Of a stretch of 25,947 nucleotides of DNA, positions 1,534 to 22,458 are shown piece by piece; the stretch's first letter is position 1; each line of letters begins with the position of its first letter. The notes beneath the pieces are model-generated. The model saw only the letters and a list, made by a program, of their open reading frames with translations. It did not search any database and was not told the DNA's origin. Source of the stretch: a virus; the IMG/VR virus record IMGVR_UViG_3300043409_001840, positions 1 through 25,947 of that record. The stretch is one strand, 5' to 3'. The position numbers were made by a program, and so were the translations under genes.

Positions 1534-3063
1534 GTGTCAAGTATTACGCCTAATCTAAGACTCAGGCTGTCCGAGAATTTGACTGCCGACGCTCGCTATA
1601 ACCTAGAGAGGATTGACCTTGTCGGGTCCATCGTCCAACTAGATGATAGTCAGAGCGCGGCAGTCGCCTCTCTTTCCTCTATTAATCTACTTCCCAACGC
1701 CCCCAGTAAGGGTGGCAGTGGTAGCGGTGGTACCGTCTATGTCGGTTCCGCCTCTCAATTATCTAATCTTCTAGTATACGGAACTATTACAGGGGATTTG
1801 TCTGGCAGTGCCACAAGTTTCACCGGTCCTCTTTTAGGGGATATTATTGGAACCCAAGGGGCCACCGCCATAGCTCCGGGCGTTATTGTAAATGGAGATA
1901 TAAATGCCGCAGCGGCTATTGCAGGAAGCAAAATATCGCCTGTATTCACTGGCCTGGTGGAGTCTGGACCACAAGGATTCCTTATCCGTAATGGTTCGTA
2001 CTCTACGAGCCTTCTCCCAGGTAATTCGCAACTTGCTGATGTAAGCCTGAAGCTGCCCATCACAGACGGCCTCCCTAACCAGGTACTCACCACTGACGGC
2101 AGCGGTAATCTATCCTTCTCCAGTCCAGGCGCGGGGACAGTAACCAGTGTGGGCCTAGTCCTACCTGCCATGTTCACCGTAAGCAACTCTCCTGTAACCC
2201 TATCCGGCGACCTAACCGCCGTCCTGGCTACCCAGAGCGCCAAGGCTGTACTAGCAGGGCCTGTTTCAGGTGCCGCAGCGGTCCCTACCTTCCGTCAACT
2301 ATCAGCTGATGACCTGACAGACGGCAGTACCAACAGGTTCTACTCTGACAGCCTCTTTGCTATCAGCCTCAGTACCCGTACAACCACCAATCTGGCTGAG
2401 GGTACCAATGAGTACCACACCACTGCCAGGGCCAGGACAGCTGCGGTAGTTAATAGCACAGCAGGCACAGAGACTGACCAGGCCCCCAGCGTCTCCTCAA
2501 TTAAAAGCTATATCGCTGGCCTGACCACCTCTGATATAGCCGAGGGTACTAATCTCTACCATACTGACCTCAGGGCTCAGGACGCAGCCGGTGCCTTGGT
2601 AGCCGATACCGCCACCGCCCAGCTGGATTATATCTCTGGCACATCCTTCTCTGTCACCGTCCTGCCGCAGGGCCTTATTAATAGCGTCTCAGGCATAGCG
2701 GAATCGGGCGGCATACTTAGCGTATCCCCCGTTGACGCCACCGCCAAGACTACCCCAATCGCCACTGATATCCTGCTGATTGCTGACAGTGCATCCAGTA
2801 ACGCCTTGAAAAAAATTACGCTGGCTGATATTGTTACCCTGGCCGGAAACGGATTCTCTGATACATGGGTCTCAGGAACAACCAAGGCAGTGGCTCACGG
2901 CCTAGGAACCAGAAATGTAATGGTTGAGGTATTCGATAATGTTACCTATGAGACCGTATACCTGGATAGCGTAGTGAGAACAGACACTAACACAGTAACA
3001 CTTACGGCCAGTGTGGCCCCATCAGGAAGCGGCCTCACCGTGCTCGTTAAAAGGATAGCCTAG
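1534..3063 (+). CDS. Tail fibre protein (509 aa)
   Basis: Receptor-binding or stem fibre built of modules common in phage fibres. The GTG start at 1534 is preceded by AGGA (1523-1526) at seven bases. Residues 1-60 are polar and may be the virion-attachment part. Residues 60-66 are a Gly/Ser linker. Residues 118-135 (IVNGDINAAAAIAGSKI) are a fibre-stem motif also seen as IVDADIKAAAGIVYSKL in the next gene. Residues 200-262 (GTVTSVGLVLP to RQLSADDL) match a very common tail-fibre module. Residues 258-350 hold three imperfect repeats (DLTDGSTNRFYSD, NLAEGTNEYHTT, DIAEGTNLYHTD). Residues 447-509 form a C-terminal beta domain (VAHGLGTRNVMVEVFD to VLVKRIA) widespread at fibre ends. The function is secure at the level of fibre; the receptor is unknown. 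Confidence 0.85.
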   Translation: MSSITPNLRLRLSENLTADARYNLERIDLVGSIVQLDDSQSAAVASLSSINLLPNAPSKGGSGSGGTVYVGSASQLSNLLVYGTITGDLSGSATSFTGPLLGDIIGTQGATAIAPGVIVNGDINAAAAIAGSKISPVFTGLVESGPQGFLIRNGSYSTSLLPGNSQLADVSLKLPITDGLPNQVLTTDGSGNLSFSSPGAGTVTSVGLVLPAMFTVSNSPVTLSGDLTAVLATQSAKAVLAGPVSGAAAVPTFRQLSADDLTDGSTNRFYSDSLFAISLSTRTTTNLAEGTNEYHTTARARTAAVVNSTAGTETDQAPSVSSIKSYIAGLTTSDIAEGTNLYHTDLRAQDAAGALVADTATAQLDYISGTSFSVTVLPQGLINSVSGIAESGGILSVSPVDATAKTTPIATDILLIADSASSNALKKITLADIVTLAGNGFSDTWVSGTTKAVAHGLGTRNVMVEVFDNVTYETVYLDSVVRTDTNTVTLTASVAPSGSGLTVLVKRIA

Positions 3064-3065
3064 TA

Positions 3066-5045
3066 ATGAAAATTCTTGGTACTATATCAGAACTTGTAAA
3101 GGTAATCCTTCGCAAGTCTACCTATGAGGTCACAGTACAGCCTAGTACAGTTACCGCAGATACAACATTCGAGCTGCCAGCAGCAGGCGGTGGCACAAAG
3201 GCTATTGTAACAGCCGATAGTTCAGCTACCCTCACTAACAAGACAATTGACAGCGATAGTAATACTATAACTAATATAGTGGATGCCGACATCAAGGCAG
3301 CCGCCGGTATTGTATATTCCAAATTAAGTATTGCCGACGGCGACCTTACTATAGCTAAGACCTCTGGACTACAGACGGCCCTGGATAGCAAGGTAGACGA
3401 AAATCTCCCCATCACTGGTGCCACGAAAACAAAGATTACCTACGACGCCAAGGGTCTAGTAACAGCCGGTGCCGACATCGCTAATACAGACATGCCAGAA
3501 GACATCGCCAGAAGCAAGCTGGCCCCGGGAACGGCTAATCATGTCCTCATTAATGATGGCACGGGTGAGATTACTAGCGAGGCGCAGCTGGCTACTAGCC
3601 GGGGCGGAACCGGGGTAAACTCCACGGCCACCTTTCCCTCCACCGGCACGGTAGTTACTAGGGATGCCACAGAGACACTTCTCAATAAGACAACCGTATC
3701 CTCTACCGGAGCGGCAACGGGTGCCCTGACCCTTCCTACAGGTAATACGAGCGACAGGACCGGCCTTACCACAACGGGCATGGTTCGCTTTAATACTAGC
3801 CTAACATCCTTTGAGGGCTATGATGGCACTACATGGTCAGGTATTGGTGGAGGAGGAACCACTGACCGCGTTACCCAGGCCTCCCACGCCTTTGTGGTTG
3901 GCAATGTTCTGTACCTGAATGGCGCAACCTATGCCAAGGCTAGGTCTGACGTAGCCAATACCGCCGAGGTAGTCGGTATGGTCAGTCGCGTTATTGATGC
4001 CAATACCTTTGAGATTACCCTGAGTGGGGAGGTATCAGGACTTACTGGCCTCACGGCTGGTGAGGTCTATTTCCTTTCTCCCATTACAGCTGGTGATGTC
4101 ACGGCCACTGAGCCTAGTGTCGTGGGACAGGTATCGCTGCCGGTAGGTATCGCCAGCAGTACCACCACCATGTATGTCCAGCCTAAAAGGGGCGTATTAG
4201 TTGGCGCTACTAACGTCAGGACACAGATTGCCCTGGCGGCATCGGCTACTACTACGGTGCAGAATGTATCGGCGTACGACGCCGGGGAACTCTCTGGCTA
4301 TGTAATAATTAATGCCACGGCATCACTTCGTTTCTTTGTGAATGCACAGTTCTCCAGGAATGGCGCAGGAACTAACTACAATGTTAGCTATCAGGCCAGC
4401 GGTGATATGCCGCCAGCTGGCTTTCAGATTACGATTACAGCCGCCGGACTACTTCAGGTAGTAATGCCCAGTGTTGCAGGATTCACCAGCGCCGCTATCA
4501 CATACGGCCTGGACGTGGCCGCCGTAGGCGCGACACTCCCACTGAGTATCTCGGCCAGAGCTGTTCTTGGTGATGTATCAGGGACGGCGGTACCGGCGGG
4601 GTATATTGGGGAAGTTATAACTTCCAGCGTGACTACTGCCACAAATGTTGGCACTACAGGACAATATTTTAATTTAACTTCAATCACGTTAACGCCCGGA
4701 ACTTATCTGATTAATGCTTCAGCAAAATACAATAGAAATTCTGCAACATTTAGTTCAGTAGATTTAGAAATTGGTTTCAGCGCAACTACCGGAAATTCAT
4801 CTACTGGGCTTGTTACTGGTGTGAGTTTGATTGAAAAAGTACAAGATGTTGGCCTTACGTTTACACAAACACCAATTTCTATGCCTACGGTTTACCTTAG
4901 ATATGACGGAACAACTGCAACAATACAAAACGGCGGAACATTAACGCCAACCGGCGGTGTTTTTTATCTAAAAGGATATTGCGGTGTATATTCTGCCGCT
5001 ACTCCGCAATATTATTGCACTGTAACAGCAGTCCGTATCGCATAA
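3066..5045 (+). CDS. Tail fibre protein with exchangeable tip (659 aa)
   Basis: Long fibre whose start ATG (3066) lies two bases after the stop of the previous fibre gene; AAGGA at 3051-3055 inside that gene can serve as ribosome binding site. Stem region: TLTNKTIDSDSNTITNIV (56-72), AAAGIVYSKL (78-87), LTIAKTSGLQTALDSKV (94-110), ITYDAKGLVTAGADI (124-138). A TTTGMVRFNTSLTSFEGYDG module (236-254) is typical of tail fibres ahead of a head domain. Residues 260-500 are beta-rich. Residues 503-659 form a tip domain opening GDVSGTAVPAGYIGE and ending AVRIA. That opening and end recur in the small gene at 5870, while the centres differ. The DNA of the tip centre is visibly richer in A/T than the rest of the gene, suggesting recent exchange. 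Probable receptor-binding fibre. Confidence 0.85.
   Translation: MKILGTISELVKVILRKSTYEVTVQPSTVTADTTFELPAAGGGTKAIVTADSSATLTNKTIDSDSNTITNIVDADIKAAAGIVYSKLSIADGDLTIAKTSGLQTALDSKVDENLPITGATKTKITYDAKGLVTAGADIANTDMPEDIARSKLAPGTANHVLINDGTGEITSEAQLATSRGGTGVNSTATFPSTGTVVTRDATETLLNKTTVSSTGAATGALTLPTGNTSDRTGLTTTGMVRFNTSLTSFEGYDGTTWSGIGGGGTTDRVTQASHAFVVGNVLYLNGATYAKARSDVANTAEVVGMVSRVIDANTFEITLSGEVSGLTGLTAGEVYFLSPITAGDVTATEPSVVGQVSLPVGIASSTTTMYVQPKRGVLVGATNVRTQIALAASATTTVQNVSAYDAGELSGYVIINATASLRFFVNAQFSRNGAGTNYNVSYQASGDMPPAGFQITITAAGLLQVVMPSVAGFTSAAITYGLDVAAVGATLPLSISARAVLGDVSGTAVPAGYIGEVITSSVTTATNVGTTGQYFNLTSITLTPGTYLINASAKYNRNSATFSSVDLEIGFSATTGNSSTGLVTGVSLIEKVQDVGLTFTQTPISMPTVYLRYDGTTATIQNGGTLTPTGGVFYLKGYCGVYSAATPQYYCTVTAVRIA
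4581..4612 (+). repeat. Tip-cassette left flank, copy 1
   Basis: 32 bases encoding GTAVPAGYIGE at the start of the fibre tip. They match copy 2 (5906-5937) at 30 of 32 positions, same orientation and same reading frame. Copy 2 is 1325 bases downstream. Confidence 0.95.
5028..5041 (+). repeat. Tip-cassette right flank, copy 1
   Basis: GCAGTCCGTATCGC at the 3' end of the fibre gene, encoding the terminal AVRIA. It matches copy 2 (6299-6312) at 13 of 14 positions. With the left flank it brackets a 415-base divergent centre. Confidence 0.9.
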
Positions 5046-5055
5046 GGAACTATAT

Positions 5056-5292
5056 ATGTTAATTAAAATACTTCCAGGCGAATACCTCTGGTCAGAGAGT
5101 GGACTCCACGTCATTGATAGTAGCGGATTTGCAACTATTGCGACTGAGGAGTCTGAGGTTGAGGTAGCTGATGAGGCACAGGTTGCTATCATTCAGGCAT
5201 ACCAAGAAGAGAGAAGGCGGGCAGTCGAAGAGCCCGCGGTCCAATTGGAAGAAGAACCAGCCCCCGAACAGCAGGAGAATACAAATGTCTAA
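5056..5292 (+). CDS. Small acidic hypothetical protein (78 aa)
   Basis: I do not recognise a family. The ATG at 5056 has an AAGGA site (5044-5048) that overlaps the TAA of the fibre gene. Residues 1-30 look like a short beta segment (MLIKILPGEYLWSESGLHVI), and residues 32-78 are a charged helical tail rich in Glu ending in EEEPAPEQQENTNV, probably disordered. Its last eight bases overlap the start of the collar-domain gene, and the AGGAG that serves that gene lies within it. Position between two fibre-type genes suggests a role in fibre assembly or a small fibre component, but this is inference from context only. Confidence 0.65.
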   Translation: MLIKILPGEYLWSESGLHVIDSSGFATIATEESEVEVADEAQVAIIQAYQEERRRAVEEPAVQLEEEPAPEQQENTNV

Positions 5293-5860
5293 CAGCGCAA
5301 TTGGAGCCACGGGAGCCATTGCGGCCCTGCCCGCTGGCGTTATGATTGATTACGCGGCAACGGTAGCCCCAGCAGGCTGGCTGATGTGCGATGGCAGCGC
5401 GGTCAGTAGGACCACCTTCGCTAGTCTATTCGCCACCATCGGTACTCTTTATGGGACAGGAGACGGCAGTACAACATTCAACCTGCCCGACTTCAGGGGG
5501 CGTTTTGCCCGGTACATGGATAACATGGGCACTCCGGCAGGGGCGGCTGGTAGAGATACCGGCAGGGTGCTGGGGGCAACCGCACAGGCAGATTCTACTA
5601 AACGTCCGACAACGTCACTGACTACGGGAAACGAATCTGTGGGTCATACTCACGGAATCGGCGGCAGCGTGCCTATCAATGGTGGGTCAACGGCATTTGG
5701 TGCTGTGGCCTGGTTAACCGGCAACGCTGTTAACACCACTACTACCATGCCGGGGACCACCACTGGTGTGAGCGCAAGCCACACACATACGGTCACGGGC
5801 GGTGGTGACGCAGAGACCCGCCCAATCAACCTCGCCTGCAATAGAATCATAAAGGTATAA
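5285..5860 (+). CDS. Phage tail collar domain protein (191 aa)
   Basis: Short-fibre type protein with a Phage Tail Collar domain (Pfam PF07484 family). Residues 16-74 carry the family pattern: PAGVMIDY, then APAGWLMCDGSAVSR, FATIGTLYGTGDGSTTFNLP and DFRGRF. The C-terminal region has two HxH motifs, GHTHGI (120-125) and SHTHTV (165-170), and ends with ETRPINLACNRIIKV, a typical ending of these proteins. HxH pairs bind metal in the T4 gp37 tip, so a metal-stabilised trimeric tip is possible. I chose the ATG at 5285 because AGGAG (5273-5277) lies seven bases ahead; the in-frame upstream extension to 5171 only overlaps the 78-residue gene and has a sequence unlike the family. Confidence 0.88.
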   Translation: MSNSAIGATGAIAALPAGVMIDYAATVAPAGWLMCDGSAVSRTTFASLFATIGTLYGTGDGSTTFNLPDFRGRFARYMDNMGTPAGAAGRDTGRVLGATAQADSTKRPTTSLTTGNESVGHTHGIGGSVPINGGSTAFGAVAWLTGNAVNTTTTMPGTTTGVSASHTHTVTGGGDAETRPINLACNRIIKV

Positions 5861-5869
5861 GGAAATAAT

Positions 5870-6316
5870 ATGACACAGAAACAATTGCTACAGGGTGCGG
5901 GGGATGGGACGGCGGTTCCGGCGGGATATATTGGGGAGAAAATTTCATCTGTTGTTACAAATGCAACGGCACCTGCTACCGGAACTGGCTTTGTTGAAAT
6001 AGTTGCTAGAACCATTACTTTAAGTAGAGGTAGTTATATTGCTTTAGCCTATGTTGCGCCAAGTGGCTTTACTGGAAATGTAGGATTACTTGATGTATTT
6101 ATAAATTCCGGCACAAATTCTCCATCTGTTTCTGGCGGCGTAAGAGGCTCATCATACTCACCGGCAAATGTTATTCTGGCCGCAAACTGCACTGCTTTTA
6201 TCCTAGTAACTGCGGATAGTTCAACTATAACCCTAAGCTGTCGTGCAACGTCAAGTAGTACAATGAGCGGTACGGTAAGTTTAGGCTCAGACTTTCAAGC
6301 AGTTCGTATCGCCTAG
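5870..6316 (+). CDS. Stand-alone fibre-tip protein (148 aa)
   Basis: A free-standing copy of the tip module found at the end of the 659-residue fibre. The ATG at 5870 has AAGGA (5859-5863) at six bases. After about 12 leader residues (MTQKQLLQGAGD) comes GTAVPAGYIGE, then a beta-rich domain (about 22-143), then the terminal AVRIA. The flanks are shared with the big fibre at DNA level, while the centre (5938-6298) has no evident close similarity to the fibre's centre beyond the general fold pattern. It has no stem, so it must either trimerise on another fibre, act as an accessory adhesin, or be a reserve cassette. The centre is A/T-rich relative to neighbouring genes. Confidence 0.75.
   Translation: MTQKQLLQGAGDGTAVPAGYIGEKISSVVTNATAPATGTGFVEIVARTITLSRGSYIALAYVAPSGFTGNVGLLDVFINSGTNSPSVSGGVRGSSYSPANVILAANCTAFILVTADSSTITLSCRATSSSTMSGTVSLGSDFQAVRIA
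5906..5937 (+). repeat. Tip-cassette left flank, copy 2
   Basis: Direct repeat of 4581-4612, differing at two bases (T for A at 5917, A for G at 5926); both changes keep the encoded residues. Confidence 0.95.
6299..6312 (+). repeat. Tip-cassette right flank, copy 2
   Basis: GCAGTTCGTATCGC at the end of the stand-alone tip gene, a direct repeat of 5028-5041 with one silent change. With the left flank it brackets a 361-base centre. Confidence 0.9.
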
Positions 6317-6333: not shown

Positions 6334-7215
6334 GTGCTATCCACTATCAGATACATTCTTACCGGGGGCGGCCTTACCAGTAGGCCAAATCGCCCCGACT
6401 ATCTGGACTCCCATCAGGTAGTAGACAAGTACCTCCTGTATAGGGCGCATTGTACCGGTGTGATGCCCGGCTGCGATGGTCTCTTATTCACCGCTATCGG
6501 CCAATCCTCCGGTGCCTGTGGCGATGCCCAGCTGTCCTCCTTCGAGGGTGAGCCAGGGCAATGGTTCCGTTCTCCTGACCACGACTGCCACCCCCTACAC
6601 TCGGCCTCAGATATCAGCAAAGATATGATGATGGGCCTCGCTCTCTGGTGCTCCGTATTCAGGGCGGAGAAGGTGGCGGCCAGAACACTGCGCAGAGCCC
6701 TGCTCCGGGCAGGCAACATGGGCCGCCCCTGGTACCTAATCTCCAGGACCCTGATGTCTCCTAATCTCATGTACTACTTCTTTTTATGTAGCAAAAAGTC
6801 ACGCAAACCAGGACTTTTCGGCAGACTGCTCCTAGCCACCAGCCATCTGACTCCACTTTCTGGTTTCCAGGCCCACCTACAGGCCCTGTCAATCCTTCTA
6901 CTTATGAGAATAGAGGGTGGTATCAATCCCATCTCTATGAAAACACTGAAGAAATTGACAGCCGCTAGTCCCAGGAATGCTATGTTCTTGGCTATGCTGG
7001 GCATAAATAATGAGTGTGTTTCAATGCTTATGGACATCTCTATGTTCCCCGAGAACGGCCCTCCTAGCACTAGGAACTACTCTACAGATTATCTGTGGCA
7101 GCGGACCCCCTCAGAAAACCCTAAAGACTGGTTGCCTAGCGATGAGGAACCTGCTAAAATCCATAGTGGTATTGACTTCCTGGTAGCCGCGGCTATCTAC
7201 CTCAGAATGGTCTGA
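6334..7215 (+). CDS. Conserved phage protein of unknown function (293 aa)
   Basis: No domain with known function recognised. The GTG start at 6334 follows GGGAG (6323-6327). The sequence is Cys- and His-containing near the N terminus (C40, C47, C62, C85, with DGLLF at 48-52 and SPDHDCHPLHS at 80-90), followed by SASDISKDMMMGLALWC (90-106). This layout, DGLLF then a Cys/His segment then S-x-ISKDM-like and a Trp, reminds me of uncharacterised proteins near tail-fibre genes in other podophages; that is from memory and unverified. The rest is helical and basic, with an acidic stretch near 265-280. There is no signal peptide. It sits between the fibre-tip gene and an XhlA-like membrane protein, so either a virion-associated or a lysis-cassette role is conceivable. 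Confidence 0.7.
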   Translation: MLSTIRYILTGGGLTSRPNRPDYLDSHQVVDKYLLYRAHCTGVMPGCDGLLFTAIGQSSGACGDAQLSSFEGEPGQWFRSPDHDCHPLHSASDISKDMMMGLALWCSVFRAEKVAARTLRRALLRAGNMGRPWYLISRTLMSPNLMYYFFLCSKKSRKPGLFGRLLLATSHLTPLSGFQAHLQALSILLLMRIEGGINPISMKTLKKLTAASPRNAMFLAMLGINNECVSMLMDISMFPENGPPSTRNYSTDYLWQRTPSENPKDWLPSDEEPAKIHSGIDFLVAAAIYLRMV

Positions 7216-8762: not shown

Positions 8763-9030
8763 AAAAGAAAAACTTAAGAAACTCCGTAAGAAGGGATTCC
8801 AGTTCCGTAAGGAGCACAAAAATCCTGAGGGTGGCCTGTCAGAGAAGGGCCGAAGTGCCTACAACAAGGCTACTGGCAGTAACCTGAAGAGGCCCCAGCC
8901 CGAGGGCGGCTCCCGTAGGGATAGCTTCTGCGCCAGGATGAGGGGCATGAAGAAGAAATTGACCAGCGAGAAGACGGCCAAGGACCCTGATAGTCGAATC
9001 AATAAATCACTCCGAAAATGGAATTGTTAA
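8752..9030 (+). CDS. DUF6321-like small basic protein (92 aa)
   Basis: Small, strongly basic protein matching the pattern of a phage family that I recall as DUF6321: a KEKLKKLRKKGFQFRKEH start, GGLSEKGRSAYNKATGSNLK (30-49), then GGSRRDSFCARMRGMKKKL and a DPDSRINKSLRKWNC end. No function is established for the family to my knowledge; the charge suggests nucleic-acid or acidic-protein contact inside the virion. I chose the ATG at 8752, overlapping the adaptor gene's stop by 11 bases; the in-frame extension upstream to 8659 lies wholly in the adaptor gene and does not fit the family start. Confidence 0.8.
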   Translation: MADRKEKLKKLRKKGFQFRKEHKNPEGGLSEKGRSAYNKATGSNLKRPQPEGGSRRDSFCARMRGMKKKLTSEKTAKDPDSRINKSLRKWNC

Positions 9031-9031
9031 C

Positions 9032-9757
9032 ATGGCGCAAAAGAAAACAGGAAAAGAAAAAAAAGAAAGTCCAAATCTTTATCCAAGAAATTTAGGTAAA
9101 CTTGTAAGAAGGCAGCGTGATAAGGGGCCCCCAGGACCTACATATGAGGACGCTGAACTTCATAAAAAAATTTCAGAATTAATAGAGGATGAGGACACCT
9201 CAGACTTCTTACGTGCGTCAAGACCTTGGGGCAAGAATAATAACGAGGATGCTGAGTTGGAGCAGGTAAGGTCTCGCTCGAAGTATTTTAATAAGATACC
9301 ACAGGACCTTGATAGAAATGAGGCATATACCACATTAGAAAACCTTAAGAATAAAGGCGATGCAAAACTTTTAGAAAAACTTAGAACTTTTGAAAACCTT
9401 AGAAATAAGGGGATGCCACTAAAAGACGCCGCTAATCAAGTTGGCGACCTAGATGTAATGTCACAATATGATGGTCTGGATAATGAGTACGTAGGTGAGG
9501 AGGTTTCAGCCAGGGGCGACGGTTATGGCGCATATAAGTCACCAGTTGACCGAGCTATGGATAAAGCTAATGTTCGTAAAAAAGAAGTTCAAGATAATCC
9601 AGGATACTATAAAGCCAACCCTGACTATCTTGAACAAGAAGCAGGTCGTCAAGAAGACCTAGAAGAGTTTATTCAATTTTATGACTCTACAGCGGTTGTA
9701 CCAAAGATTAAATCTTCTAATAAATCCAGCAAACCAAAGTCAAAGCCAAAAAAATAA
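9032..9757 (+). CDS. A/T-rich hypothetical protein (241 aa)
   Basis: No family recognised. The ATG at 9032 follows the previous stop by one base, with no clear ribosome binding site. The protein is hydrophilic with Lys-rich ends (MAQKKTGKEKKESP and SSNKSSKPKSKPKK), a helical middle containing two similar pieces (TLENLKNKGDAKLLEKL, 102-118, and TFENLRNKGMPLKDAANQV, 119-137), and no membrane segment. Codon use differs from its neighbours: many AAA, CTT, TTA and GAA codons, versus AAG, CTC/CTG and GAG in the adaptor and nozzle genes. This suggests a recently acquired accessory gene inserted between the adaptor and the nozzle. Confidence 0.65.
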   Translation: MAQKKTGKEKKESPNLYPRNLGKLVRRQRDKGPPGPTYEDAELHKKISELIEDEDTSDFLRASRPWGKNNNEDAELEQVRSRSKYFNKIPQDLDRNEAYTTLENLKNKGDAKLLEKLRTFENLRNKGMPLKDAANQVGDLDVMSQYDGLDNEYVGEEVSARGDGYGAYKSPVDRAMDKANVRKKEVQDNPGYYKANPDYLEQEAGRQEDLEEFIQFYDSTAVVPKIKSSNKSSKPKSKPKK

Positions 9758-15309: not shown

Positions 15310-17792
15310 CTAGTCCTCTTAACAGACTACAGACCGGATTCAGGCAGGGCACTCAGCTAGGAAAGACTAGTATTGAGGAGGCATCGGCACGCGCCGGTCA
15401 ACCAGTCAGGCCAACCACACCAATGGGTGCGGCTGGATTGGGCCTAGGTCCTGACAGTGCTAAGATGGCTGGCTCCTCCGCCAACATGGCCGCGGCCCAG
15501 CGCCAGGCCCTTCAGCCTAGTGAGACCCAGAGACTTCAGGATGTCCTTCGCACACGTACACTGGCCAGAGAAGAAACCACTGCCGAGGAGGCCGCGAGAC
15601 AGAAGGCCGCCGGTGTATCAGGACTATCCTCCCTGCAGGAGCGTGTTCAGCAATTGGTGCTTGCTCAACTAAATAATATTACACCACCTACCACCGCCGT
15701 CTATACACCAGATAGTAGTAAAATAACAACACTATATCCCACTATAACGGGTACTGATAAGAGTGACTTGGTGGCCATCCTAACCAGACATGGCTCTGGT
15801 AAGGCAACTAGCACTGATTTTACAGATGCTGCTCGTATACTTGGTATCACTGATATAGCCAATGTTAACTCCAAATTAACTGAACTTCTTAACACAACTA
15901 ATACTGAGGTAGGTACCGCGGGCGCAGCCGCCGTGGGCGATAAGTTATTTATTACTGAGGAGGCCCTTGTCCAGATGGGAACTAGTAGTGAGGAACTCGC
16001 CGGTATCTTGGGCATGACAGCGGCCCAAATCCTGGACCTCACCACGGATGAGCTAGTCGGACAGATTAATAATCTGGCGGCTAAAGAATACTCCCGGGCA
16101 GAGGCACTCCGTAGAATTATCTCTGACCCTAATGTGGGTGCCGCCGAGAGGCAGGCCGCACAGGAACAGTTAATTGGTCTGGGATACGCCGGTGTCTCCG
16201 CCACTGAATCGGATATAGGTAAACTCACGGCTGAGCTTGAGGACGCCAACTCCGTGACCATTAACGGAGAGACCCTATCAGTCTCCGAGGTCCTTGCCGA
16301 TAGCTTCCTATCCAGTCTTATTAAGGACTACCTACAGAATCCAACCGGCGACGCCGCTGAATACATTAACAGCACCCCCGGCCTGTCCGGCTTCAAGGCA
16401 TTCATTGATGCCAATAGGACCGCACTGGCCGCAACCACCGCCGCAATGGCCGCGGATGTAACAGCATTCGCTGGCATCCAGACCGACACGGCGGCCCTTA
16501 GGAATAATCCAAAAACAGGCACCGGCCTCAGTGACCAGACCGCCGCCGACATGGGTATAGGGGATACTGGATTTGTTGATGCCGTGCCAGTCGCACCACC
16601 CGTCGTAGCCTATATCAATGACGGGAAAGACGCGGATGGAACTATAACCACCAGCCTTAATAATATTGCAGCGATTGATGGGGCGGCGGATACCGGCGGA
16701 ATCATGGCCGGAATTAAAATAGCTACTCAGGATGAACTACAGGCCTCCGGCTTTATTGATAATGCTGATGACTACGCCAACTATGTAACAAAAATTAGTG
16801 CCCTTAATAACTCCAGCCCGCAATCCCAAGAGCAGGTACTTGAGTCTATCTTTGGTGATAATTTTGATATCCAAGGACTTGAGGCCGAGTTAACAAAGAT
16901 TAGAAACTTCCAGAGGGCCGGACTACTCACCAGTGCCGACCCAATCATGGACCTCCTAGATGCCGATAGGGATGGAAAACTAGATAGTCCTGATAAGCTG
17001 AAGGCCGCCTTCCTTGCTAAGATATCCAAGGATGGAAGACCTATGACCATCAAAGAAATGCTGGCGGGTGGGACTAATGTAACTACTCTGAATCAGACTA
17101 TTAAGGACATGATTAACGGAAGGACGAATCTCAAAAGAAGTTCTACCGAATCCCCGCGTGACCAGGATAATAAACCGCTATTTACTCCTACTCAATGGGA
17201 CACCTTTAGTGCAAGATTAGAGGATGGCGTTTTTGATGATGCTGATGTTTATAAATTGAAAGATGAAACCTATGTTGACCTGGAGGCCCTATCTAAACTT
17301 CCAGGGGCCAGTAATAATACGGCACTTAAAGATTTAATAAAAACTAAAAGAAGAGAGTGGGTTACGGGGATTGCTCAGGCCGGACTTGATGCCATGAAAG
17401 CTGTTCCTAAAGAAAATAGATATGGTAGTGATAGGACCATAAATGATTCCTGGGAAGCCGCCGCGTCGTCAACTTTGGCCCTATTGAATAAGGCATATGA
17501 GGATGCTTCCAGTGATGTCGATAAATCTTATATTAATTCTTATCGTATAGATTTTATTAATAGACAGAAAGAAATGCTTCAGTGGAGTCTCGGGCAAGAA
17601 TTACGCGACATAGAGAGAATTCGTGCTCAGCTTCGTGGGCGACTAGATAAGCACAGAGATGTTAGGTCGTACAAAAATGCCCTAAGAGATGCCGATAGGG
17701 ACTACGATAATGCTATTAGAAGATATTATCGTTATGCGAATTCTCTTGGTATAACTGGTAGCTTAGGTGCTAACCACCCGGACCGTAGGTAA
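15306..17792 (+). CDS. Internal virion protein candidate (828 aa)
   Basis: First gene of the putative ejection-protein block. The TTG start at 15306 has AGGA at six bases, and no alternative start lies between it and the in-frame stop at 15213. Residues 1-110 are low-complexity, Ala/Gln/Thr-rich and polar (MASPLNRLQTGFRQG start, shared in outline with the next gene). Residues 110-440 are Ala-rich helical segments. Residues 552-563 (DADRDGKLDSPD) form an EF-hand or dockerin-like calcium loop with Asp at positions 1, 3, 5, 9 and 12 and Gly at 6. The C-terminal 130 residues are a charged coiled coil (EMLQWSLGQELRDIERIRAQ) ending RRYYRYANSLG. The last kilobase is noticeably richer in A/T than the first. 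I know no exact homologue; the call rests on position, size and helical composition. Confidence 0.6.
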   Translation: MASPLNRLQTGFRQGTQLGKTSIEEASARAGQPVRPTTPMGAAGLGLGPDSAKMAGSSANMAAAQRQALQPSETQRLQDVLRTRTLAREETTAEEAARQKAAGVSGLSSLQERVQQLVLAQLNNITPPTTAVYTPDSSKITTLYPTITGTDKSDLVAILTRHGSGKATSTDFTDAARILGITDIANVNSKLTELLNTTNTEVGTAGAAAVGDKLFITEEALVQMGTSSEELAGILGMTAAQILDLTTDELVGQINNLAAKEYSRAEALRRIISDPNVGAAERQAAQEQLIGLGYAGVSATESDIGKLTAELEDANSVTINGETLSVSEVLADSFLSSLIKDYLQNPTGDAAEYINSTPGLSGFKAFIDANRTALAATTAAMAADVTAFAGIQTDTAALRNNPKTGTGLSDQTAADMGIGDTGFVDAVPVAPPVVAYINDGKDADGTITTSLNNIAAIDGAADTGGIMAGIKIATQDELQASGFIDNADDYANYVTKISALNNSSPQSQEQVLESIFGDNFDIQGLEAELTKIRNFQRAGLLTSADPIMDLLDADRDGKLDSPDKLKAAFLAKISKDGRPMTIKEMLAGGTNVTTLNQTIKDMINGRTNLKRSSTESPRDQDNKPLFTPTQWDTFSARLEDGVFDDADVYKLKDETYVDLEALSKLPGASNNTALKDLIKTKRREWVTGIAQAGLDAMKAVPKENRYGSDRTINDSWEAAASSTLALLNKAYEDASSDVDKSYINSYRIDFINRQKEMLQWSLGQELRDIERIRAQLRGRLDKHRDVRSYKNALRDADRDYDNAIRRYYRYANSLGITGSLGANHPDRR

Positions 17793-21768: not shown

Positions 21769-22458
21769 ATGGCCCTTACCCCAGAAGAACAACAAGAATT
21801 AAACCAGCTAAATAAAATGGCATCATATCCTGGGCCAATCTCGGCCTCTACGATAAAGTACGCGCCACAAAATCAAGAAACCTCCCTACTCAAATATGCC
21901 CAGGGAGAGGGCCTGAACAAGAATGAGCTTACGGCCTTTATGGCGCAGGTATCCCACGAGTCAAATGGATTTAGAAACCTGGAAGAAATCGGTGGTGGGA
22001 AAGATACTTACAGTGGTGGCAAGGATTATAAGGGTCGCGGCTATATTCAACTAACCCATGATTATAACTATAAGGCCATGGGCGATAAGCTGGGAATTGA
22101 CTTACTTAATAATCCTGACCTGGCTGCTGACCCAGAGATTGCCAAAAGAATTGCGGTTCAGTGGTGGAAGGATAATGTTAGGCCGGGCGTAAAAGACTGG
22201 AATGATGTATACTCTCATAGCAGACTTGTTAATTATCCAAACGCAACCGGTCCGGAGCAAGTCAAGGGATATGATGAGAGGGTGGCTGAGTTTCAAAAAT
22301 ACCAGAAACAACTCAGGCCGGTTATTGTTGAGGTAAAGGGCGGCCTTTTTAAGATTCCAGCGATTCAGGTACCAGAAGTACTTAACGATTGGCCCGAGGC
22401 ACGTGTGGTACCCAGTTCAACTAGCATAGCATCTGAACGGAAAAGTCAAAGACCATGA
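21769..22458 (+). CDS. GH19-type lysozyme, virion-associated or endolysin (229 aa)
   Basis: Peptidoglycan hydrolase of the glycoside hydrolase family 19 / phage lysozyme type, cleaving glycan strands. Key pattern: FMAQVSHESNGFRNLEEI (57-74), with the putative catalytic acid at Glu64 in HES and Glu72/Glu73 as nearby acidic candidates for the second residue. It continues with YKGRGYIQLTHDYNY (87-101), the family's GRG-x-IQ(L/I)T signature, and IAKRIAVQWWKDNV (124-137). The segment between HES and GRG is only about 22 residues, shorter than in classical GH19 chitinases. Residues 2-17 (ALTPEEQQELNQLNKM) are a motif seen again in the next protein; residues 185-229 are a polar tail. There is no signal peptide. 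The gene lies inside the internal-virion block, separate from the XhlA-like gene, and overlaps the next gene by ATGA, so a virion-borne role during entry seems likelier than classical endolysis. Confidence 0.8.
   Translation: MALTPEEQQELNQLNKMASYPGPISASTIKYAPQNQETSLLKYAQGEGLNKNELTAFMAQVSHESNGFRNLEEIGGGKDTYSGGKDYKGRGYIQLTHDYNYKAMGDKLGIDLLNNPDLAADPEIAKRIAVQWWKDNVRPGVKDWNDVYSHSRLVNYPNATGPEQVKGYDERVAEFQKYQKQLRPVIVEVKGGLFKIPAIQVPEVLNDWPEARVVPSSTSIASERKSQRP

Follow-up and report, generated by a model that had tools for sequence, protein, structure and literature searches.

Two stretches of a viral DNA fragment from a tailed phage encode, with high probability, receptor-binding heads that can be exchanged and that occupy the two slots of a host-recognition cassette. 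The fragment, henceforth referred to as the window, is the whole of a linear virus record of 25,947 bases (IMGVR_UViG_3300043409_001840) and is itself only part of a genome. The first slot (slot A) is the C-terminus of a long fibre of 659 residues, which ends in head 1; the second (slot B) is a stand-alone gene encoding a 148-residue protein, which contains head 2. At the level of sequence, related phages display exchange of heads at their borders, movement of heads between slots, a layout in which the fibre appears fused to slot B, a likely deletion scar and one pool of heads shared by both slots. In the proposed mechanism, slot A would serve as the tip of the fibre, whereas slot B would supply a head that is translated separately from a start of its own and carries its own N-terminal anchor. 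Both slots would present the same 33-base linker at the head N-terminus and the same AVRIA-stop end, so a head from another phage in the same host cell could replace the resident one, or change slot type, and the reading frame would be kept. Homologous recombination of the single-strand-annealing type within the linker is the probable mechanism, and both heads are presumably carried on the virion.

The two heads of the window are bounded by direct repeats. The left flanks, listed as linkers in Table 1, are identical at 30 of 32 positions and each begins at codon position 1 of its own open reading frame (ORF; fibre, 3066-5045; stand-alone protein, 5870-6316). The right flanks (5028-5041 and 6299-6312) are identical at 13 of 14 positions and lie directly 5' of each stop codon. 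Both slots encode GTAVPAGYIGE on the left and AVRIA-stop on the right. These counts, the shared frame and the direct orientation had been reported in an earlier reading of the window from its letters, henceforth the original prediction, and all were reproduced. Matches this good would be expected by chance at about 2e-10 for the left flanks, all register pairs considered, and at 3e-7 for the right flanks, whose position is anchored; chance is excluded as the source of the likeness.

The enclosed centres (415 and 361 nucleotides; nt) had been described as unlike each other and richer in A/T than their neighbourhood. They are indeed unlike in DNA, but as proteins the two heads are remote members of one alignable domain family (E 5e-7, 40% over 88 amino acids (aa), linker included) with the same predicted fold. 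Similarly, their GC contents (38.6% and 41.8%) lie below those of the fibre shaft (52.3%) and the window (50.7%), but equally A/T-rich stretches occur elsewhere in the window at about 8951-9451 and 16951-17451, so low GC alone is not special. Across 41 heads, 38 had a lower GC content than the rest of their own locus (mean difference -4.3 points), and A/T-richness is a general property of these heads.

Relatives of the cassette were found among uncultured virus contigs (designated by L-numbers) with searches using the linker and two junction peptides. Heads were present at 33 loci including the window, with both slots seen in eight, slot A only in 12 and slot B only in 13. Because many of these loci are fragments, an unseen slot is weak evidence of absence. 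Slot A follows the pattern ARNVIGDTSG-GTAVPAGYxGE-head-AVRIA-stop and slot B the pattern MTQKALLQSAGDG-GTAVPAGYxGE-head-AVRIA-stop, where the fixed slot-B start is preceded by a ribosome-binding region. Both slots draw on one divergent pool of heads of about 125 residues. The order of fibre and tip, 78-residue protein, collar protein, stand-alone head and 293-residue protein (p293) is the same in the window, L003 (a 60-kb contig), L031 and L032, and the heads differ.

These relatives show reassortment of heads precisely at the borders found in the window. Tip 1 of L003 and L032 is 98% identical in nt over 255 aligned bases, whereas the preceding shaft is only 65-88% identical. The shafts of L031 and L032 are 83-97% identical near the tip, at which identity drops to about 35%; their slot-B heads are 85.5% identical in aa, so that similar stand-alone heads accompany different tips. 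The intervening collar gene is also mosaic, and over part of its length L003 and L031 are 98-100% identical while L032 is at about 67%. Relatives always carrying the same two tips, which the original prediction had named as evidence against itself, were thus not what was found. In L032 the fibre frame (3-1045) ends early within tip 1, and the usual C-terminal end is met downstream in a different frame; either the phage has a frameshift or the contig is misassembled at this point.

Heads were also shared between slots. L038 carries a fibre tip with 81% aa identity, over all 135 residues, to the stand-alone head of L133. The nt identity of the two begins at the linker (9190) and continues through the head to the stop, and the blastn match of 982 columns runs from the linker through the head into the p293 gene. 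Upstream of its linker L038 matches shafts of slot A from other phages, and the spacer on its downstream side is that of slot B; this is the layout expected from recombination between a fibre and slot B with loss of the genes in between. Such swapping or fusion of tips with deletion of the intervening genes had been anticipated by the original prediction, and both the fused, gene-less layout and the crossing of slots by heads agree with it. L038 may have arisen by a single intragenomic event or by exchange between genomes, or its layout may be an ancestral state.

Further pairs crossing the slots were L126 slot B with L130 slot A (52% aa identity), L044-A with L132-B, L046-A with L130-B and L003-B with L035-A. 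On a maximum-likelihood tree of 39 heads the slot labels change 12 times, compared with 13.2 times after shuffling, and well-supported branches require at least eight of these changes; the tree shows no clustering by slot. L044 shares its source metagenome with L031 and L032, and its p293 gene begins with sequence 99% identical to that of L032. The contig retains 12 codons from the start of the 78-residue protein, fused in frame to a stub ending GGFISAVRIA-stop. The stub is read as the last codons of a slot-B head and would therefore be a deletion scar. L129 (8628-9467) is a chimera in which a slot-B start is followed by a piece of shaft, the slot-A junction and a head. A further module border is seen in L129 at GDGTA.

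Misjoining of contigs at a short repeat during assembly is a very unlikely source of these layouts. Every comparison does rest on metagenomic contigs, whose linkers and flanks have up to 44 exact bases in common, but the same layouts recur in contigs from many metagenomes and at the L044 junction the common sequence is only about 8 bases long. Moreover, the L038 and L133 heads differ by 1.2 substitutions per synonymous site (dS), which indicates that this exchange is old.

The linker is conserved at the level of codons. Where two contigs agreed in a residue, they used the same codon in 57% of comparisons within slot A, 57% within slot B and 56% between the slots, compared with about 33% expected from simulations drawing codons from each contig's own usage (z 12.1 within slot A and 10.6 within slot B). 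The conserved peptide directly upstream of the slot-A linker had 38% identical codons with 32% expected (z 3.1), and codons downstream of the linker were near expectation (z 1.5). Related heads are close to saturation at synonymous sites (dS about 1), and the constancy of the linker therefore requires either recent exchange or selection acting on the DNA. In slot B the start region is constant as well, perhaps partly through relatedness. At the right border codons are constant in slot B (z 10.7) and barely so in slot A (z 2.1), so the right-hand crossover of slot A may lie elsewhere.

These data bear on an old gene duplication inherited vertically, in which the likeness of the flanks would come from protein-structure constraint only. 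The fold and linker peptide common to all heads fit such a history, but codons of the linker, and not just its residues, agree between slots and between phages with heads close to synonymous saturation, and the equally conserved peptide upstream of the slot-A linker shows little codon excess. As the slots also do not form clades and a 98% identical tip adjoins diverged shafts, a duplication of this kind is hardly credible. Selection of the linker DNA as a protein-recognised recombination site or hotspot, instead of mere homology left by exchange, would account for DNA as constant as CCGGCTGGGTATATTGG, common to L027, L031 and L032, and for a codon z of 12. However, exchange alone would homogenise the linker, no inverted repeat was found at it, and neither a serine recombinase (PF00239) nor a reverse transcriptase (PF00078) was found in 11 related records, mostly fragments, of which only two contained a tyrosine recombinase (PF00589). 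A selected site of this type is considered improbable. The same records led to rejection of a diversity-generating retroelement (no PF00078) and, together with the direct orientation of the repeats, of an invertible tail-fibre segment of the Mu/P1 Gin/Cin type (no PF00239) and of a shufflon (PF00589 in two records only).

Annealing recombinases of the RecT or ERF type were present in six of the 11 related records. Minimal pairing segments of 23-27 exact bases for Red-beta and 31-34 for RecA have been reported (PMC3945230). In the window the two linkers share no exact run longer than 11 nt, which is below these minima, while runs between linkers and flanks of different contigs reach 44 bases, including a 35-base run between slot A of L031 and slot B of L032 from the same metagenome. 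Exchange between co-infecting phages is thus the likelier route, and internal switching may be possible in genomes such as L032, whose own two linkers have a 23-nt exact run.

The original prediction had pointed to a spare head and a possible host-range switch. In a rival reading along these lines, the stand-alone head is silent, and the fibre tip is switched, much as in phase variation, when the two linkers cross over within one genome; in-frame direct repeats, the fused layout of L038 and the 23-nt run of L032 can be cited in its favour. Slot B, however, has a ribosome-binding region and start codon of its own, and its N-terminus and gene order are conserved. Strong purifying selection acts on stand-alone heads, with ratios of nonsynonymous to synonymous substitution (dN/dS) of 0.08 (L031/L032) and 0.18 (L040/L048). 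These features argue against an idle spare, and slot B probably encodes a second working protein. Crossing-over would also irreversibly delete two conserved genes, and with only 11 exact bases in the window an active switch would probably be inefficient. A silent spare is accordingly unlikely, and exchangeable heads in two working slots remain the preferred reading. A more elaborate version, in which slot B is both port and reservoir for incoming heads in a dedicated two-slot system, selection for recombination keeps the linker DNA constant and heads pass among distant phages and from slot to slot, the fibre included, is speculative but tenable.

Neither head matched Pfam, and neither gave a significant match to PHROG. 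AlphaFold models of both, a check suggested in the original prediction, were beta sandwiches with predicted local distance difference test (pLDDT) scores of 79 and 77. The models matched the lectins BC2L-C and PLTL, Pgp3, C1q, TNF ligands and cyanophage tail proteins with Z of about 8-11 over 100-134 residues, the two lectins and the cyanophage proteins scoring 9-11. These matches support, with moderate strength, the assignment of both heads as TNF/C1q-like jelly rolls. Folds of this type form trimeric binding heads in other systems. Binding of host receptors is the probable function, and the predicted relation to lectins is one of fold only.

Several observations weigh against exchangeable receptor-binding heads as the explanation. 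The structural models are monomers of moderate confidence, the fused layout of L038 could be ancestral and not the product of a deletion, and the window linkers have at most 11 exact bases in common. Searches of the 60-kb relative L003 gave no annealing recombinase, and the codon likeness in slot B may come partly from closer relatedness of those contigs. Finally, no cultured relative was present among 50,697 phage records, in which the fibre, p293, the adaptor, the capsid and a related head had no match; the lineage appears to be without a cultured member in this phage collection.

The 148-residue head alone, used as a query, found no relative in viral contigs; its matches in the phage collection were weak Arthrobacter minor-tail proteins only (E > 1) and were not used. 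In bacterial and archaeal genomes the strict linker pattern had no match and a looser pattern four scattered matches, and no host was assigned.

Features of the cassette are presented in Table 1. Tailed-phage structural genes in the window include those of the fibre, the collar protein (PF07484) and an adaptor (SU10-type, PF24175). The shaft is 72.8%, 58.4% and 78.4% identical in aa to those of L003, L031 and L032, respectively. No match to p293 was found in Pfam or PHROG; distant versions (L040) show by eye a lipoprotein-like signal at the N-terminus. At 21769-22458 the window encodes a protein that by eye resembles a GH19-type cell-wall hydrolase (QVSHESNGFRNLEEIGGG...).

Table 1 Features of the two-slot cassette in the window.
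Feature	Position	Strand	Remarks
Tail-fibre shaft, residues 1-505 of the 659-residue fibre	3066..4580	+	ORF; ends in slot-A junction peptide ISARAVLGDVS
Slot-A linker GTAVPAGYIGE	4581..4612	+	30/32 nt in common with slot B; same-codon excess across phages
Head 1 centre (fibre tip), predicted TNF/C1q-like jelly roll	4613..5027	+	38.6% GC
Slot-A right border AVRIA-stop	5028..5045	+	Kept in nearly all heads
78-residue protein between slots, function not assigned	5056..5292	+	N-terminal 50 residues conserved
191-residue phage tail collar-domain protein between slots	5285..5860	+	PF07484, E 4.6e-23; PHROG tail families
Slot-B start region, AGGAAATAAT-ATG and MTQKQLLQGAGD	5861..5905	+	
Slot-B linker GTAVPAGYIGE	5906..5937	+	
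Head 2 centre (stand-alone 148-residue protein), predicted TNF/C1q-like jelly roll	5938..6298	+	41.8% GC
Slot-B right border AVRIA-stop	6299..6316	+	
293-residue protein (p293), function not assigned	6334..7215	+	Downstream edge of cassette in most relatives
Receptor-binding segment	3107..6333	+	L030 and L033 carry one unrelated 924-residue fibre instead

The nearest relatives of the window, L030 and L033, are 90-96% identical in nt outside the receptor-binding segment, and their unrelated fibre indicates that variation also occurs by replacement of the whole cassette. The two contigs come from different metagenomes (3300042478 and 3300042467, respectively) and look identical, with the same alignment coordinates, identities and ORFs over their shared 9.6 kb, in which the 924-residue fibre lies. 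A second variable site (window 2330-2567; L030 4728-5715) lies in the protein upstream of the fibre, which has 759 residues in L030 and L033 compared with 509; the approximately 250 extra residues have, by eye, a pectate-lyase-like beta-helix appearance.

How phages replace a tip without breaking the fibre is a long-standing question, and in this cassette many uncultured phages reveal the borders at single-base resolution, with products of exchange (fusion layout, deletion scar and reassortants) present in public data. The motif GTAVPAGY[IV]GE...AVRIA-stop provides a searchable tag for receptor-binding heads of phages without a cultured relative. The cassette is also a concrete test case for whether short linker homology drives natural change of host range.

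The closest precedent is the exchange of tailspike modules at a conserved motif in Kuttervirus (Ackermannviridae), where each phage has several receptor-binding proteins, the same receptor-binding module occurs on different tailspikes of the genus (TSP1, TSP3 and TSP4) and modules begin at the motif GTTAVSL, a proposed recombination site (PMC8432352). The cassette resembles this in that one module sits on more than one structural protein and identity sets in at a motif common to them, as with the L038 tip and L133 head, whose border is at the linker. The Kuttervirus spikes are large beta-helices, whereas the heads described here are predicted TNF/C1q-like domains of about 125 residues, one slot is a small stand-alone protein, the right border is also conserved and the linker is conserved in its codons. 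In otherwise near-identical marine and cryoconite phages, C1q-like heads adjacent to the tail fibre are reported to shuffle within a variable host-recognition region; the sections consulted of these accounts, which derive variable islands from read recruitment, describe no shared in-frame linker, two slots or crossing between slots (PMC3909814, PMC7468147). The T2-type gp38 adhesin likewise has tip specificity segments bounded by conserved motifs, but by description it is a separate tip protein with several recognition loops and glycine-rich motifs around hypervariable segments; Pfam and PHROG searches, which included no direct comparison with gp38, gave no sequence relation to the heads. Mosaic exchange by Rad52-like phage recombinases, for which short, diverged homology suffices (PMC3945230), offers a plausible mechanism given the RecT/ERF relatives in several of these phages, although its demonstration was in coliphages. 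A literature search for the linker motif returned no text. As far as searched, the fibre/stand-alone two-slot layout with one pool of heads, its codon-constant in-frame linker, and the natural fusion layout and scar are new.

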